A stretch of DNA of 64,000 nucleotides, from contig NZ_JAKFYQ010000001.1 of the NCBI RefSeq assembly GCF_021533835.1, positions 5,001-69,000 of the forward strand, in the 5' to 3' direction. Below the pieces are notes generated by a model. It was not told the origin of the DNA. It saw nothing but the letters and a program-made list of their open reading frames with translations, and did not search any database. Within the stretch, counting starts at the first letter, position 1. Each line of letters begins with the position of its first letter. A program made the translations under genes and the position numbers. This DNA comes from Synechococcus sp. Nb3U1 (GTDB taxonomy: Bacteria > Cyanobacteriota > Cyanobacteriia > Thermostichales > Thermostichaceae). Below are positions 547 to 9,315 of this stretch, in pieces.

Positions 547-2055
547 CTAAGAAGGCTTCCACTTTAGCTCTGGATCAAAGGGATAAATGGGGCGCTTGAG
601 GTGACAGAAGGTGAGTCGACCCAAATGAGGGCTGGACAAGCCAGGGGTGTCGGCTTCAATAATCTGTTTGGCAATGGGGGTGAAGGCTGCCCGAAAATGA
701 ACCAATGATTTCACTGCCAGAATCTTTTGTTCGGTGGGCTCAATGCCTTGGCTGCGAAAAACCTCCAGATCTGTGGGTTGATAGCGATGGGTGGTGACGA
801 TGACCCGTACGGATCCCCCCTGCGCGCCTGCTATCTCCAAGACGGCTGTTGGCCCCATATTGATTTCGATGCCCGTCAGCATGGATCCTGTGTGGGTAAA
901 TCTTCCGTCACTCAAGCTCTTAACTGTAGCGGTCACCGGCAGGGGATCCCCATGTAATTGATCCACCTTGCCACCCAACGTGACCGATAACGTCGCCCCA
1001 ATTCCAGCCTGGGTTGCAGCCTTGACGACTTCGGGGTCGGCGATAACTCCTACAGTTGCTTTTTGAGCTCCCAATCGTAAAAGCGCCTCCAGCAACACCG
1101 TGCCATCACAGGGGGTGCCTGCTCCGGGATTATCGCCACTGTCTGCTATGACGATGGGCCCTGCCGGAGCTTGCATGGCTTTTATGACCGCCTCGTCGAT
1201 GAAAACCGGTTGAGCGACAAAGTCATCTCGCCAATCCCAGACATAGGCTGCTAGTTCCTGGGCTTTGGCTTTGGCAAGCTGGGGCTCCCCGTTGCTGGTG
1301 ACGATGATTGTGAAGCTGGTGTGAGGAATATCGGCATAGGGAAACCCAGGCAGATAGCTGACCTTGAGAATGCCTCGCTCGGTTTCAATATCGTGGGCCA
1401 GTCGCTTCAGCCCCAACATGGGCTCAGCGTGGGTGTATTGTCGCTGCATTCCCGAGAGGAGGGGGATGTTGATGATGTGAGGGGTAGGTTGAATGCCTTC
1501 CCGAACCATTTTGGCCATCAATAATCCAGCTTCGTAGCCGCGCTCGTAGGGATCCGTGTGGGGATATTCATCGTAGGCCACGCATATGCTGGCCAGACTC
1601 ACCATCTCAGGAGTAATGTTGCCGTGGAGATCGAGCTCCACAATCACCGGCATCTCAGGCCCCACCACCTGCCGAACGGCCCGGAGAATATAGCCTTCTC
1701 CGTCATCATCCAACTCCGAGACCATGGCCCCATGCAGGGACAACAGGACACCATCCACAGGGGTCTTGGTGTGGATGGTGTCCAGACGGGTGGTCAATCC
1801 CTCCACAAGTGTAGCGAGGGCTGCTGCCGTGACGATCCCACCTGGGGTGGCAGAGGCCATCAGGGTCGGGATGACCTGGTAGTTGAGATCGCGAGCGGCA
1901 TCAATGAAACCACCAAGGCCGGTTTTGGTGCCGGTGTACTTGGTCAAAAGGCTCTCATCCACGGCATAGTGGCCTTGCTGAAAATCCTCCAGCGTGGTGG
2001 GAACGATGGAAAAGGTATTGGTTTCGTGGGCGATGCCACCAATTGCGATACGCAT
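547..2055 (-). CDS. M81 family metallopeptidase (MlrC-like)
   Basis: 502 aa, a normal length for the M81/DUF1485 family named after microcystinase C (MlrC), a zinc peptidase that cleaves the linearised tetrapeptide of microcystin. The family motifs are visible: HETNTF near the N-terminus, ELDLHGN in the middle and YPHTDPYERG after it, which supply the histidine and aspartate metal ligands. It is the last gene of a leftward operon after a peptide ABC transporter (binding protein, DppB, DppC), which fits a role in breaking down an imported peptide. The substrate is unknown; most M81 proteins have no link to microcystin. The frame is intact, unlike two of its operon partners. No signal peptide is seen, so it is probably cytoplasmic. 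Confidence 0.9.
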   Translation of the reverse strand: MRIAIGGIAHETNTFSIVPTTLEDFQQGHYAVDESLLTKYTGTKTGLGGFIDAARDLNYQVIPTLMASATPGGIVTAAALATLVEGLTTRLDTIHTKTPVDGVLLSLHGAMVSELDDDGEGYILRAVRQVVGPEMPVIVELDLHGNITPEMVSLASICVAYDEYPHTDPYERGYEAGLLMAKMVREGIQPTPHIINIPLLSGMQRQYTHAEPMLGLKRLAHDIETERGILKVSYLPGFPYADIPHTSFTIIVTSNGEPQLAKAKAQELAAYVWDWRDDFVAQPVFIDEAVIKAMQAPAGPIVIADSGDNPGAGTPCDGTVLLEALLRLGAQKATVGVIADPEVVKAATQAGIGATLSVTLGGKVDQLHGDPLPVTATVKSLSDGRFTHTGSMLTGIEINMGPTAVLEIAGAQGGSVRVIVTTHRYQPTDLEVFRSQGIEPTEQKILAVKSLVHFRAAFTPIAKQIIEADTPGLSSPHLGRLTFCHLKRPIYPFDPELKWKPS

Positions 2056-2130
2056 GGTTTTAAAGTCTGGGTGGGGAACAACTCGATTGGCTAGTTTTGG
2101 TTGATGCTATGGAGAAACTTTTTTTCAGGA

Positions 2131-3050
2131 TTAGCTGCGCTGGCGGGGATCTAGCGCATCCCGTAATCCATCTCCAATGAAGTTAAACGCCAGCACTGTC
2201 AGCACGATCATGACGCCTGGGGCAATAGCGATGTGGGGGTACGTAAGAATGTAGGCCCGGCCATCTGAGAGAATGCCCCCCAAGACGGGGCTGGGGGCCG
2301 GATCCCTAACCCCAGAAACGATAGAGCTGATTCCAGAATGATGGTGCTGCCCACCCCAAGGCTGCCTAATACGATTACAGGCCCCATGACGTTAGGGAGA
2401 ATATGGTGAAGTAAAATTCGCCTCGAAGTAGCCCCTCCTGCACGGGCTGCCATGATGAAATCTTGCTCTCTCAGGCTCATGACATCGGCGCGTACCACCC
2501 GAGCATAGGCTGCCCACGAGGTCAGCCCAATCACCGTCACGGTCGTGGTCAAGCTAGGGCCAAGCACAGCCGCCAGCATTAACAACAATGCCAGTGTTGG
2601 AAAGGCCATGAAGCTATCCAGTAGCCTGGAGAGCACTAAATCGGCCCAGCCCCCAAAGTAACCTGACAGGCCCCCCACCAGGATCCCGATGGTCACCGCT
2701 AGACTAGTACTCCCTAGGCCCACGATCAGGGCAGCACGGGTGCCAAAAATGATGCGGCTAAGCAGATCTCGGCCCACATGGTCAAACCCGAGCCAATGTT
2801 CAGAAGACGGGGGCCGGCCACGCATGCCGGCAAAAGTCTGGACGGGAGAGTAGGGGGCCAGTGCATCCGCAAACATTGCCACCAGAATCAAGATCACCAC
2901 GAAGGCAAGCCCTACCAAGGCCAAGTGATTGGCTCGATAGCGACGCCAGGCGCGCACCCAAGGGGAGATCGTCCGATGAGACTCCGGGCGGGTGGCTGTT
3001 GGGGATGATGTCGCTAAAATGACGGGGCTGGTGGGGGTGGGCATGGGCAT
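2131..3050 (-). pseudogene. Peptide ABC transporter permease, DppC/OppC type (frameshifted)
   Basis: Inner-membrane permease of the DppC family with an N-terminal membrane segment, a periplasmic part and the BPD_transp_1 core, including the EAA-loop region around LREQDFIMAARAGG. The open frame ends early at 2208 (280 aa) with a nonsense tail. Shifting one base at the C6 run 2276-2281 (G6 on the coding strand) restores the family C-terminus through a stop at 2131, ending in FNFIGDGLRDALDPRQ. The total length of 920 nt is one short of a multiple of three. The cause is either a real single-base deletion, transcriptional slippage at the homopolymer, or a sequencing error. It sits 57 bases downstream of the dppB-type gene in the same operon. 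Confidence 0.85.
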
Positions 3051-3107
3051 AGGCTAAGTCGACATGAACTTCCTGAACTAGGCCGAATAGACAAAAAAGC
3101 AGAAAAC

Positions 3108-4052
3108 CTATCGGGATCGGGCTAACAGCCGCAGGCGTGGATCGATGGCAGCGTAGGTGAGATCGGTGAGCAGGTTAACCACGACGACTAAGATGGACAA
3201 CACCATGACGATGGCTTGGGCCACCTGGTAATCCAGCCGAAAGACGGAGTCATAGAGCAGTCGCCCAATCCCAGGCAAGGCAAAGACCGATTCGATGATG
3301 ATGGTGCCGCTGAGCAAAAAGGCGATGCGAAACCCAATCACTGTCACCACCGGCAGCAGAGCATTGGGCACCCCATGGCCCAATAAGACCGCCTGGTAGG
3401 AAAACCCCTTGCTGTGGGCGGTTTTGATGTAGTCCTGTTTGAGAATTTCGATCATGGCTCCCCGCATCACCCGGGCCAGCACCGCCATCTGCTCGGTGGC
3501 CAGCACCACCACCGGCAAGATGTAACCCTGCCAAGAGCGCAAACCAAAGGGAGGCAACCAACGCAGCATCACCCCAAACACCACAATCAGCATTAGCCCT
3601 AGCCAAAAGTTGGGCAAAGCGATCCCCAACGTAGATCCCCCGGTCAGGAGGTAGTCGAACCAGGAGTTGCGCCGGGCCCCTGCGATGATGCCCGCCGGAA
3701 TGGCGACAGCAATGGCAATGCCCAACGCCAGCAAGTTGAGTAGCGCAGTCACCGGCACAGCTTCCCAGATCATCCGGTTGACCGGCACGCCAGTGCGGAT
3801 GATGGAGGTGCCGAAATTGCCGGTGAGTATCTTGCCCATCCAGGTGAGATACTGCTCCCACAGGGGACGGTCTAAGCCCCATTGTCGTCGGATTGCCTCC
3901 ACCTGAGCGTCGGTGATGGGCACTTGCCCTTCTCCCAGCAGCAAATCGACCGGATCCCCAGGGATGAGACGCACGATGATAAAGGTAATGATGCTGATGA
4001 GAAAAATCACCAACGTCCCCTGAAAAAGTCGAGCTATCAGGTATCGGCCCAT
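3108..4052 (-). CDS. Peptide ABC transporter permease, DppB/OppB type
   Basis: 314 aa, the usual length for DppB-type permeases. It starts with an N-terminal membrane helix (YLIARLFQGTLVIFLISIIT) and has a long periplasmic segment, then five more predicted helices. The EAA-like coupling loop lies around QDYIKTAHSKGFSYQ and the C-terminus carries the family tail DLTYAAIDPRLR. It would form the channel with the DppC-type protein downstream. No ATPase (DppD/DppF) gene is in the window, so the ATP-binding subunits must be encoded elsewhere. This gene shows no lesion, although both flanking transporter genes do. Confidence 0.93.
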   Translation of the reverse strand: MGRYLIARLFQGTLVIFLISIITFIIVRLIPGDPVDLLLGEGQVPITDAQVEAIRRQWGLDRPLWEQYLTWMGKILTGNFGTSIIRTGVPVNRMIWEAVPVTALLNLLALGIAIAVAIPAGIIAGARRNSWFDYLLTGGSTLGIALPNFWLGLMLIVVFGVMLRWLPPFGLRSWQGYILPVVVLATEQMAVLARVMRGAMIEILKQDYIKTAHSKGFSYQAVLLGHGVPNALLPVVTVIGFRIAFLLSGTIIIESVFALPGIGRLLYDSVFRLDYQVAQAIVMVLSILVVVVNLLTDLTYAAIDPRLRLLARSR

Positions 4053-4168
4053 GGGGTTACCTCATAATTGGCTCAGCCTAGCCATTGAGTTGATGGTGAT
4101 TGGCTATCTGGTTGACTATTCTGTCGGAACAAGGATCCCAACTGAGGGCAGAGGATCCTAGGGATCCC

Positions 4169-5830
4169 TTAGGCTTCAATCCAGATCTCGTGCAGCTTTT
4201 TGTAGATAAAGTCCCCGGCTAAGGCAGCCTCTGGCAACCCTTTGATGCGGCTGCTGAAGATATTGAACCAATCCCAATACATGACGAAGAGGAAGGGCAC
4301 CTCCTCCGCCACAATCTGCTGAATCTCGCGGTAGTATTCGGCCCGACGTTCGGGATTGACTTCCAAGCGGCCCAGTTCAAGTAGCTCGTCGACACGGGCA
4401 TTGGCAAAATTGGATCAATTGGATCGCCCATCTGATGACAGCGTGGTAGGGGCATCGGGATCCCCATTGGTGCCTCCGTAGTTCCAGTTGTAGAGGGAGG
4501 CATCGATGGTGTTGTTACGCAAACCCGTCTGGATGGCGGTGATGGGCGCCTCTGAGAGCTGCATATCGATTCCAACCTCCAGCAGCTGTTGCTGTAGGAT
4601 CTCTGCCTGAGGGCGGCGGGCCTGGTCCCCAGTGATGGTGGTGCAGGTGAAGGTCAGCTTTTGGCCATCTTTTTCGCGGATGCCGTCGGATCCTATTGTC
4701 CAACCTGCTTCTTCTAGCAATTCCCTTGCTTTGGCCGGATCATACTCATAGGTGGTGACCAGGGGCTCAAACCACTGCATCAAGGATGGGGATAAGTTGG
4801 AGGTGGCTAGGGTAGCGGCACCTTGCTGCACATCTTCAATTTGTCGAGGACGGTCGAAGGCATACATCATGGCCTGTCTCACCCGCTTGTCAGAGAGGAT
4901 GGGATGATTGTTGTTCAGCGGAAAGTGATTGACGCTGAGGCTAGCGCTGACGAAAGTGGTGAAGTTTTCGGTGTCGGACGCAAAGCGCAGGTTATCTTCG
5001 ATAAGCGGCGGCCAAGTCATTGTATCGGCTTGGCCTGTTTCCATGGCGATGGCTCGAACTGAGGCCTCTGGCACGATATCCTGGCGCAAAATGTTGATAT
5101 TGGGACGGCCTCGAAAGTAGTCATCAAAGGCTTCCAATTCGGTGAACTCTGCTGCGCGCCACTCTTTGAGCTTAAAAGCCCCTGTACCGATGGGCTGCGT
5201 TTCAAAGACTTCCTCGCCCACCTCTTCGTGATAATGCTTGGGCACGATGTAGTAATTATTGGCAGTAAGGCGCAGAAAGGTGGCGTTGGGCTGGCTGAGG
5301 GTGAAGACTACCGTGTACGGATCCGGCGTGTCGATGCTCTCGATGTCAGCAGCTTGTCCTGAGATGGTGGAGCCACTTTCGGGATCCCCATAGAACTCAT
5401 AGGTGTACTTGACATCCTCAGAGGTCAGCTCTTCGCCGTCGTGAAACAGCACCCCTTCCCGCAGCTTAAAGGTATATGTGAGGCCATCGTCGCTGATCTC
5501 CCAGGATTCTGCCAGGGCGGGCTGCACCTCAAAATTCTCGTCCACCTCTATTAGAGCGTCATAGAGCTGGTAGATAACAAATAGAGGAACATTCCCCACC
5601 GCTTTGCCAGGGCTGAGGGTCGGCACTTCTTGGTGCCCAACCGCAACAAAGGTTCCTCCCCGAACTGGCGTATCAGATTGGCCTTGAGCGGCCTCGTGAG
5701 ACGCCGAAAGGGACAGCAATGCTCCAGAACTCGAAGCCGCTGCCCCCATCAAAAGGCTGCGTTTGAGGAAGTCGCGACGGCGAACCAATCCTGCTCCAGC
5801 TCCTGACGACGGACGACGAGAGTAACCCAT
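4169..5830 (-). pseudogene. Peptide ABC transporter substrate-binding protein (SBP_bac_5), interrupted by an in-frame stop
   Basis: An extracytoplasmic solute-binding protein of the DppA/OppA family, about 553 codons in total. The N-terminus has a twin-arginine motif (RRRDFLKRSLL) followed by a hydrophobic stretch, so Tat export is likely. The frame is open from 5830 to a TGA at 4415-4417 and then continues in the same frame to 4169. A tandem 9-bp duplication (GATCCAATT twice) creates the stop: removing one copy gives an uninterrupted reading RSNFANARVDELL, as expected for the family. As it stands, about 82 C-terminal residues are lost. It is first in the leftward operon with the permeases and the M81 peptidase. 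It is probably non-functional unless the TGA is read through. Confidence 0.88.
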
Positions 5831-6073
5831 GCTTCAATTTCCTTGACGACTTTTCGGCGGAGTTGCCTGGAGAATGAGGGCAGTGTAGCTTAAGTTTTTG
5901 AGTTGAAGTTGTATCGATTTGACCAAAACCTCAATCGCTTTTAAAAGCATAATGTATCTTTGGATACAATAATCACAGATAGCTTTCGCCAGTCAATCAA
6001 GTTTTTCAAGTTTTTGCTCTGAGAGACCTTTACAGTCTGTTTAGGCTTCTTAGAGGGTTACGCCTGCTATTGG

Positions 6074-6870
6074 GTGACAAGTCTGGGGCATTCTGGGGCC
6101 ACATGGCCATTCCTCCAGTGCAGTGATTGCTTTTGCCAGATCGCTCAGTACAGTCGGGCCGAGTTGATTGGGCAGAATCACCGTTTGATCAATTCTGGCC
6201 ATCATGACAAAGCCTTTTTTCGCCAGATGTGGTCAACTATCTCACGGGGGCAAATTTGGAAAGGCGAGATCTGTATTTGCGGTCTCCGTTGCGCAGCATC
6301 GACGGTTTTGGGCAGGTGCTTTTGGAGGATGACAACGACCAACTGGATGGGCCACCTGATTGACGATTTGCTGATGTTATCGCGGGTCACCCGCAGGGAG
6401 TTGAGACAGGATTGGGTGGATCTGAGCCAGTTGGCCCATTTGATCGCTTGGGATCTGGAACAATCCAACCCGCAGCGCTCGGTGTTGTGGAGCATGGAGC
6501 CGGATCTGAGGGCCTACGGGGATCCGCGCCTGCTGCGGGTGGTGTTGGAAAACTGACTGGATAATGCCTGGAAGTTTACTGCCAAACAGGAACGAACCCA
6601 CATTGAGGGGGGATCCCGTAGGGAAGACAATGGACGCATTTATTTCGTGCGAGACAAGGGGGCAGGCTTTGATATGCACTATGCCGATAAACTGTTCGGC
6701 CCCTTTCAGTGGTTGCATCTTTCCGAGGATTATGCCGGTACTGGTATCGGCTTGGCGACGGTGCAGCGGATTATCCTCGGCACGGGGGTCACATTGGGGC
6801 AGAAGCCTCTTTGGGGCAGGGGCGATCTTCTTCTTCACTCTTGGGGCGAATGGGAGCGACCCAAAGACTT
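6074..6870 (+). pseudogene. PAS-domain sensor histidine kinase remnant
   Basis: This is a multiply damaged kinase gene. The first part (6074-6280) encodes a recognisable PAS segment including YSRAELIGQNHRLINSG. The rest of PAS and the phospho-acceptor histidine region are missing, and the frame resumes near 6340 with the end of a dimerisation helix (LIDDLLMLSRV). The ATPase domain follows, with a TGA at 6554 inside what should read [13 protein letters not shown]. After that come RDKGAGFD and [12 protein letters not shown], and then two frame changes near 6780-6830 ([10 protein letters not shown] in one frame, GAIFFFTLG in another). It carries an internal deletion, a stop and at least two frameshifts, so it cannot make a working kinase. 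Confidence 0.85.
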
Positions 6871-6947
6871 GATCCTGCCGCTATCCAAGAACCTTTCCGG
6901 ATTTGCTTGCATGGTATGCTACCTGACTGCTCTCTCGATGGTTGACT

Positions 6948-7988
6948 ATGCTGCCCGCTTTGCACCAACTGGCTCGCGCTGCCAAGACCGTCTTTGTGTA
7001 CGGCATGGGCGGGGGAGGAGATGTCATTCAGACGATCCCGATCCGCAACTACTTGCAACACTTGGGGGTGGAGCGGGTGATCATTGGGGGAGTGACCTGC
7101 CAGTGGTGGCCGCCGCCCGAATTTGACCCGGAACCCCAGGCTCCGTTTCCCCTGTCGGCTTCGGTTTGGGGCCCCTGTTACTATGCCCTAGAGGAAGTTG
7201 AAAACGGGCGCTGGATGGGATCCCAGGCGTTGCAGGTGGATGGGTTGGCCCGGGTAGGGAAGCGGATCCCGGCGGAAGCGCAAATGGCGGAGCTGTTTGG
7301 GGTAGAAGCAGTGTTGCTCAGCTTGCGGGGGGGTGGCCAGGGGTTTTTGGCAGGATTGGAAGCGGTGATCCAGGAGTTTGCGGTGGATTTGGTGGTGGGG
7401 GTGGATATCGGCTCCGACAGCATTTACAGCCATACGGACGAGGTACGGCAGCCGCGCACTCCCCTTGCGGATTTCATCAGTTTGTCTGGGCTTTACCGCT
7501 GTTCGGTGCCGTCGATCTATGGGCTGTCGGGCTATGGCTGCGATGAGGAATTAGCTCTTGAGGATTTGGAGCGTAATGTGGGTCGGGCGATGCGGGCGGG
7601 GGGCTTCCTCGGAGCTTATGGACTAACCCAAGAGGATGTGGCAGATATGGAACGCGCCTGTCATGCCATGCCGGATCCGGTGGAAAAGTGGCCCATGGAA
7701 GCGGCGAAGGGCCATTTGGGGTTGCATCGGATGCGACTGAGCGAGCCCTGGGGATCCCTGCTGCGCATTACCCCGTTACAGGCGATGATCCTGTTTTTTG
7801 ACCCGAAGATTTTGGTGGCAGCGGTGAACCGGATCGCGGCCCAAGTGGGAGAAACCGGATCCCTGGCGGAGGCGGAAGCGACTCTAGCCCGGGCAGGGAT
7901 CCTGCCGGAGAGCTACCTGCAGCGGTATATCCAGTTTCTGCGCCCGGAATTGTATGGATCTGATGGATCTGCTGGATCCGCATCCTAA
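6948..7988 (+). CDS. DUF1152 domain-containing protein
   Basis: 346 aa from the ATG at 6948; a TTG at 6942 is in frame and possible. It opens with a glycine-rich nucleotide-binding-like segment ([16 protein letters not shown]). Further conserved pieces are [16 protein letters not shown] and [18 protein letters not shown], as in the DUF1152 family known mainly from archaea and scattered bacteria. I know of no established function for the family. The gene overlaps the start of the downstream amidohydrolase by about 35 bases, which implies co-translation and a linked role, perhaps in nucleoside or pterin-like metabolism. No signal peptide or membrane segment is visible. Confidence 0.8.
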
Positions 7989-9315
7989 GGTGATGGAAAG
8001 GGAAATCGTTGATCTGCTGATTCGGGACTGTGCTGCGATCCCGATGGATGAGTTGGGGCGGGTTTTGGAGCGGGTGGATATTGCCATTAATGGGGATCGG
8101 ATCGTGGCGTTGGGGCAGGATCTCCCCTGCGTGGGCCGACAGACCCTGGACGGAAGGGATCATGTGGCTTTGCCGGGCTTGGTGAATGCTCATATGCACG
8201 AGTGCCTGACGCGGGGGCTGTGTGAGGATCGAGAGCTTTCCCGTTGGCTGGCGGAGATTTGTTTTCCTCTGGATGCCGCCTATACTCCTGAGGATATGCG
8301 GCTGGCGGCGGCCATGAACCAACTGGAGATGATCCGCTCCGGCACCACCACCTTCATCGACATCTACCGGCACCCTGCAGCGGCAGCGGCCATCACGGTG
8401 CAATCTGGGTTGCGGGGGATCTTCAGCCCGCAGGTGATCGACGAACCGGCGGGGGTGGGGGAATCGCTGGCGGATACGGAAGCGTTGATCCAAGCCTGGC
8501 ATGGGCGAGGGTCGGGTCGGGTTCACATTTGGGTGGGGTTACATGCCCCCTATTCCTGTCATCCCCGGAGTTTCACCCAGGGATCCGAGCTAGCCCAAAA
8601 GTACGGGGTGGGGCTGCATACCCACCTGGCCGAAACCCGTTGGGAGGTGGAAACCCTCCAGGCTCGCTATGGACTGACTCCGGTGCAGTGTTTGGAACGG
8701 TGGGGATGCCTGACTTCCAGGACGTTGGCCGCCCACTGTGTGCATCTGCAACCCGAAGAGATCGATCTCCTCAAGGCCAAGGGAGTGCGCATCGCCCATA
8801 ATCCCAGCTCCAACATGAAATTGGCCTCCGGCATACCGCCGGTTTTGCAGTGGCTATGGCGTGGGATCCCAGTGGGGTTGGGTACTGACTCAATTTTGAG
8901 CAACAACAACCTCGACTTGTTCGAAGAAATGCGGTTGGCGGTGTTTCTGCAACGGCTCGGGTCGGGGGATGGGGCCGCTCTCCCGGCACAGCAGGCTTTG
9001 TGGATGGCCACCCGCGGCAGCGCGGCTTGTTTGGGTCTGGAGCAGGAGATTGGCAGCTTAGAAGAGGGCAAAAAAGCCGATGTGATCCTGTTGGGTTGGC
9101 GGGCTCCGCATCTCTGGCCCCGCCTCCAGGGATCCCTGAATAACCTGATCGCCCAGGTGGTGTATTCTGCCCAGGGCAGTGATGTCGCCACCACGATCTG
9201 CGATGGGCAGATCCTCATGCACAATCGACAGGTGCTCACCCTACCCCAGGAGGAACTGCGACAGCAGGTGGGATCTCAAGCGGCGGATCTCTGTCGGCGC
9301 GCTGGGCTTGGATGA
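7954..9315 (+). CDS. TRZ/ATZ-type amidohydrolase (SAH/MTA deaminase-like)
   Basis: 453 aa from the ATG at 7954. A second ATG at 7993 begins closer to where family members usually start and follows the upstream stop codon. The zinc site motif HMHECL is near residue 70; further metal and substrate residues lie in AHCVHL, RIAHNPSSNMKL and GLGTDSILSNNN. These mark the family of S-adenosylhomocysteine, 5'-methylthioadenosine and chloro-s-triazine deaminases, which hydrolyse an amino group from a heterocycle. Which substrate is used cannot be told from sequence alone. It is translationally coupled to the DUF1152 gene. It is cytoplasmic and full length. Confidence 0.87.
   Translation: MDLMDLLDPHPKVMEREIVDLLIRDCAAIPMDELGRVLERVDIAINGDRIVALGQDLPCVGRQTLDGRDHVALPGLVNAHMHECLTRGLCEDRELSRWLAEICFPLDAAYTPEDMRLAAAMNQLEMIRSGTTTFIDIYRHPAAAAAITVQSGLRGIFSPQVIDEPAGVGESLADTEALIQAWHGRGSGRVHIWVGLHAPYSCHPRSFTQGSELAQKYGVGLHTHLAETRWEVETLQARYGLTPVQCLERWGCLTSRTLAAHCVHLQPEEIDLLKAKGVRIAHNPSSNMKLASGIPPVLQWLWRGIPVGLGTDSILSNNNLDLFEEMRLAVFLQRLGSGDGAALPAQQALWMATRGSAACLGLEQEIGSLEEGKKADVILLGWRAPHLWPRLQGSLNNLIAQVVYSAQGSDVATTICDGQILMHNRQVLTLPQEELRQQVGSQAADLCRRAGLG

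Follow-up and report, generated by a model that had tools for sequence, protein, structure and literature searches.

The window analysed here, a stretch of 64,000 nucleotides of Synechococcus sp. Nb3U1, carries a gene for a DUF1152 protein (PF06626) whose end is probably overlapped by the start of a gene for a deaminase-type amidohydrolase. The pair is laid out as follows:

6948..7988 (+): DUF1152 gene, 346 aa (PF06626, 149 bits; AlphaFold2 model with pLDDT 85.9 and pTM 0.88; orthologue with 94% identity in genome G005)
7954..9315 (+): amidohydrolase gene of the TRZ/ATZ type, 453 aa, from the MTA/SAH/5'-deoxyadenosine deaminase branch (Amidohydro_1, 213 bits; 4f0r; catalytic motifs)
7954..7988 (+): overlap of the two reading frames, 35 bases (17 bases in G005)

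The gene pair and its conservation in the genus

The DUF1152 gene starts at ATG 6948, with TTG 6942 as a possible alternative. If ATG 7954 is used, the amidohydrolase begins exactly 35 bases inside the end of the DUF1152 gene, in agreement with the original prediction. A second in-frame ATG at 7993, the start of MEREIVDLLIRD, lies 4 nt past the DUF1152 stop and would leave no overlap; the segment aligning with family members opens at this codon. ATG 7954 is preceded by GGAA in the window and by GGAG in G005, a genome from the same genus, where this ATG is kept. From these signals, the overlapping ATG 7954 is the more likely, if unproven, start.

In G005 the two genes had the same order, were co-oriented and overlapped by 17 bases. 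Among the six genus members searched, this was the only genome with a DUF1152 gene, apart from that of the window itself (G000). That DUF1152 is present in some members of the genus and absent from others suggests a horizontal gain. Between G000 and G005, the DUF1152 proteins were 94% identical and the deaminases 91%. The dN/dS ratio was 0.059 for DUF1152 (334 codons) and 0.099 for the deaminase (438 codons), with a dS of about 0.5. Both genes are under strong purifying selection.

The surroundings of the pair are less stable. Just upstream, the window has a broken histidine kinase gene. Its remains, with a PAS domain (6059-7114, +), are interrupted by a stop and by changes of frame, and part of the sequence is deleted; its counterpart in G005 was a long ORF of 826 aa. 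Further upstream, on the reverse strand (547-5830), there was a block with an M81/MlrC-type peptidase, OppC, OppB and a solute-binding protein. OppC had a frameshift near its end, and the solute-binding protein was cut by an in-frame stop ahead of a tail that looks conserved, so that the transporter looks decayed, unless there are assembly errors in this region. Nothing matching this block was present in the 19 kb of G005 that were read around its pair. The low dN/dS ratios, the broken kinase and the lack of the M81/ABC block around the pair in G005 together indicate that the pair consists of intact genes kept in unstable surroundings.

Such flanks, with a neighbouring block that is unmatched around the second pair, would also be expected if two unrelated genes had been inserted together by chance, the overlap being a mark of compact insertion and not of a functional link. 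The pair did not recur outside the genus in our sample (see below), which points the same way. We nevertheless consider chance placement unlikely, because the overlapping order persists at the synonymous divergence given above while both genes are strongly constrained.

The deaminase

The gene following DUF1152 had been predicted to encode a deaminase, and this was borne out: it encodes a deaminase-type amidohydrolase with intact catalytic residues, in a co-oriented, overlapping pair that is kept in G005. The protein matched Amidohydro_1 with 213 bits, as a TRZ/ATZ amidohydrolase. Its best solved relative was the MTA/SAH deaminase 4f0r (E 7e-68, 232 bits). The nearest curated models were “N-ethylammeline chlorohydrolase” (PRK06038) and “5'-deoxyadenosine deaminase” (PRK07228). 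Curated models of 5'-deoxyadenosine and MTA/SAH deaminases thus matched the protein, with scores below every curated NCBIfam cut-off (378.7, 338.4 and 220.6, versus 609, 522 and 779).

An alignment with 22 other sequences showed the metal-binding and catalytic residues HxH, HxxE, H and D to be intact, in the motifs NAHMH, HLAE, AHC and GTD. The protein thus has the metal and acid residues common to the MTA/SAH and 5'-deoxyadenosine deaminase (DadD) enzymes; it differs from this branch by its sub-cut-off scores, and the best cyanobacterial and euryarchaeal homologues in the sample were only 40–45% identical. Most euryarchaeal relatives have WP.E where the window deaminase has FPLD. This position is presumably a ribose contact in the Thermotoga enzyme TM0936, and sugar recognition by the window deaminase may therefore differ. 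The enzyme would turn an amino-heterocycle, of the adenosine type or related to it, into the oxo form.

A second family member in the same genome was 40% identical to the window deaminase. We found no donor of the gene in 244 genomes from the cyanobacterial phylum and 196 archaeal genomes. In the former, the best homologue other than the gene itself had 40% identity. In the latter, all from the phylum of an Archaeoglobales genome, the closest homologue was a partial match with 45% identity.

Predicted fold and putative active site of DUF1152

The window protein passed the Pfam cut-off for PF06626 (149 bits versus 27), over model positions 1-287 of 295. The family had been described as without assigned function, in line with our literature search, in which no paper found named “DUF1152” or “PF06626”. 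By sequence search we found no solved structure of DUF1152, and a PDB search with the family profile gave only two meaningless matches (E 0.77 and 0.98).

We modelled with AlphaFold2 the window protein (47-row alignment, pLDDT 85.9, pTM 0.88) and a DUF1152 protein from Thermoproteota, from locus L131 (41 rows, pLDDT 96.3, pTM 0.94). The two models are not fully independent, because their alignments have many sequences in common. Against the PDB, Foldseek found nothing at E ≤ 0.001 for the window model, and for the L131 model the top match was the LmbE-type deacetylase 8bgo (E 9.3e-4). VIA-align was used as a second look at the Foldseek list. For the window model the best 20 rows were all LmbE/PIG-L deacetylases (Z 8.4-11.3; top 3dfi, Z 11.3, rmsd 4.0 over 197), and the next, unrelated row had a Z of 7.7. 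For the L131 model the best 13 rows were all LmbE/PIG-L deacetylases (Z 8.1-9.8; top 2xad, Z 9.8, rmsd 3.8 over 183), and unrelated Rossmann-like proteins followed from 6.5 downwards. These values only moderately exceed the stated background of VIA-align, a typical best Z of 7-8.

The predicted Rossmann-like fold is thus similar to that of the LmbE/PIG-L N-deacetylases, such as MshB, BshB, teicoplanin deacetylase and chitobiose deacetylase. The sequences are not: hhalign of DUF1152 with 24 LmbE sequences gave a probability of ≤1.7%, and the PIG-L profile (PF02585) had no match at E ≤ 10 in three DUF1152 proteins. According to PMC4101496, every LmbE-like enzyme characterised carries an HXDD + H metal motif. 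This motif was absent from DUF1152, where no alignment column had more than 21 His among 94 sequences and HxDD was found in one protein of the 94 (L021). The loop after strand 1 differs as well, being GxGGxxD in DUF1152. By the models, DUF1152 may use an LmbE-like scaffold; by the motif test it is not an LmbE member.

Nucleoside hydrolases (PF01156), considered because of a DxGxD motif in DUF1152, were rejected as relatives (hhalign probability of 0.1% versus 14 sequences). They were not among the 50 VIA-align rows listed, which is not evidence against such a relation.

Two conserved elements of DUF1152 were located by alignment and model:

6999..7022 (+): glycine-rich loop YGMGGGGD, residues 18-25, after strand 1 (residues 14-19)
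7404..7418 (+): DxGxD motif (D153, G155, D157), at the end of strand 148-154

The G-rich N-terminus noted in the original prediction (YGMGGGGDV) is therefore present, and in the model it forms the loop after strand 1 of the Rossmann-like fold. Eight residues (G21, G22, D25, D153, G155, D157, D175 and G255) were conserved, to rounding, in 94/94 DUF1152 sequences. DSSP on the window model placed the GxGGxxD loop after strand 14-19, the DxGxD motif at the end of strand 148-154, and a GxG after strand 189-194. In this predicted model the invariant residues are mostly at C-terminal strand ends, which in Rossmann-like folds form the usual ligand crevice. The strand-end pocket of DUF1152 would accordingly be made of the GxGGxxD loop, the DxGxD motif and a further Asp, with the zinc motif absent. 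We infer from the model a loop that binds phosphate or ribose, and an acidic centre that may bind a metal. The glycine loop would bind a phosphorylated or ribosylated small molecule, and the Asp cluster would hold a divalent metal for its hydrolysis or for group transfer. Overall, the models point toward a small-molecule enzyme with an LmbE-like fold and a different active site.

A glycine loop after strand 1 could also belong to a non-enzymatic nucleotide sensor or to a generic Rossmann dinucleotide-binding protein without LmbE likeness, and universal stress and CARF proteins did appear lower in the VIA-align list (Z 7.7 and 7.0). The LmbE rows, however, clearly led for both models, and acidic residues that do not vary among the aligned proteins point to catalysis or metal binding. 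A sensor or dinucleotide-binding protein is therefore very unlikely in our view.

Of the results obtained, this structural lead for DUF1152 is the most useful. It is a first one, and with a fold assignment and a short list of invariant residues DUF1152 becomes an enzyme candidate that can be tested. One guess at its type of substrate comes from the deaminase beside it in this genus, an association that is not general in the survey below.

Distribution of DUF1152 and generality of the pairing

A first scan of the genome contigs with a single protein as query gave no matches. In the search of relatives, DUF1152 was found in 2/39 genomes, and in the own phylum in 3/386, the own genome included in both counts; one of the latter genomes, G351, is from the same class. 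DUF1152 was further found in 9/201 genomes from the phylum of G408 (Anaerolineales locus L051), 5/116 from the class of G409 (Natrinema locus L017) and 43/151 from the phylum of G411 (Acidilobaceae locus L039). It was thus common in Thermoproteota, and present also in some haloarchaea, Archaeoglobi and Chloroflexota. Sulfolobus acidocaldarius carries a DUF1152 gene as well.

In a midpoint-rooted FastTree phylogeny of 94 DUF1152 proteins, the window and G005 proteins were on their own branch beside the bacterial type (support 0.98). By pairwise identity, the window protein was closest to Archaeoglobales proteins, with up to about 35%. Within PF06626 the two proteins form a deep branch, with no more than about 35% identity to archaeal members. 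The window protein is still a near full-length match that keeps every invariant residue, and residues 162 and 164 depart from the family norm.

To assess how general the pairing is, we surveyed 139 DUF1152 loci, each confirmed by profile; when the last 150 residues are compared, 96 different proteins are represented. Many loci overlap one another, and the flanks were mostly 1.5 to 8 kb, shorter at contig ends. From the phylum of G411, 38 of the 43 places were read, and the survey covered a minority of the bacterial phyla. By tblastn (E 1e-3), the deaminase was found at only three of the 139 loci (L001, L002 and L005), all from G000 and G005 and thus from one genus. Conversely, among 53 deaminase loci with flanks of about 1.5 kb, DUF1152 was found only at the own pair.

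These two counts give no support for a pathway-level association outside the genus, and the coupling looks like a lineage-restricted putative operon. Of the original prediction, the adjacency recurred in a second genome, and its interpretation as a general two-step route was not supported: in the sample, adjacency was confined to one genus, close to the single-genome restriction that the prediction itself named as its refutation and short of it only through G005.

A two-step route on a nucleoside such as SAH, MTA or 5'-deoxyadenosine has to be weighed, in which the amidohydrolase would deaminate the substrate and DUF1152 would cleave or otherwise alter the inosyl product. It would fit the overlap kept in two genomes, the nearest curated families of the deaminase (PRK06038 and PRK07228) and the frequency of DUF1152 in archaea, at 43 of 151 genomes in the phylum of G411. 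A precedent exists in Methanocaldococcus, where PMC10978960 describes a deaminase-first SAH route with DadD followed by an SIH hydrolase (DadD/SIHH). In the same source, however, homologues of DadD are reported from Bacteria and Euryarchaeota alone, and Thermoproteota are a group in which DUF1152 is common. The FPLD of the window deaminase, against the WP.E of most euryarchaeal relatives, and the near absence of the deaminase from DUF1152 loci also speak against this route.

A further point in favor of the two-step route comes from a haloarchaeal plasmid (locus L009), in which DUF1152 was found among genes for NUDIX, NAD kinase, nicotinate phosphoribosyltransferase and a macro-domain protein. 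This context recurs only in part, with NUDIX alone found next door again, in L023 and in G647 (L073/L074). On balance, we regard the two-step route as improbable. The possible NAD/ADP-ribose link of DUF1152 is no more than a lead.

Our preferred explanation, which we hold with about even confidence, is that the two genes form a small operon that selection has maintained within a single cyanobacterial genus, in at least two of its genomes; DUF1152 would be an LmbE-like small-molecule enzyme, and the deaminase would act on an amino-heterocycle. In this genus both genes would have been put in one transcript, so that the proteins are made together, and elsewhere DUF1152 would function without this deaminase. 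Going further, DUF1152 might be an enzyme family built on an LmbE fold, with the glycine loop and the Asp cluster in place of the zinc site, that takes nucleoside- or NAD-derived substrates and is wired here to a deaminase in a new salvage or detoxification step for modified purines. This we offer as speculation, more doubtful than not by a long way.

Clustering of the neighbours at 46, and then at 82, DUF1152 loci gave no neighbour conserved across lineages, and 20 selected neighbours, when scanned with Pfam, had no theme in common. Synteny was found only at the lineage level, for example in Archaeoglobales. In three haloarchaeal genomes a NUDIX hydrolase gene, 68–72% identical, adjoined DUF1152 (L009, 7526-7918; L023, 7561-7950; L073/L074). 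A gene of the RNA 2'-phosphotransferase (Tpt1/KptA) type was found one to five genes downstream of DUF1152 at the Thermoproteota loci L040, L155, L156 and L159. The Archaeoglobus-type loci L025, L027, L029 and L030 had a gene of the aconitase/isopropylmalate dehydratase small-subunit type just upstream of DUF1152.
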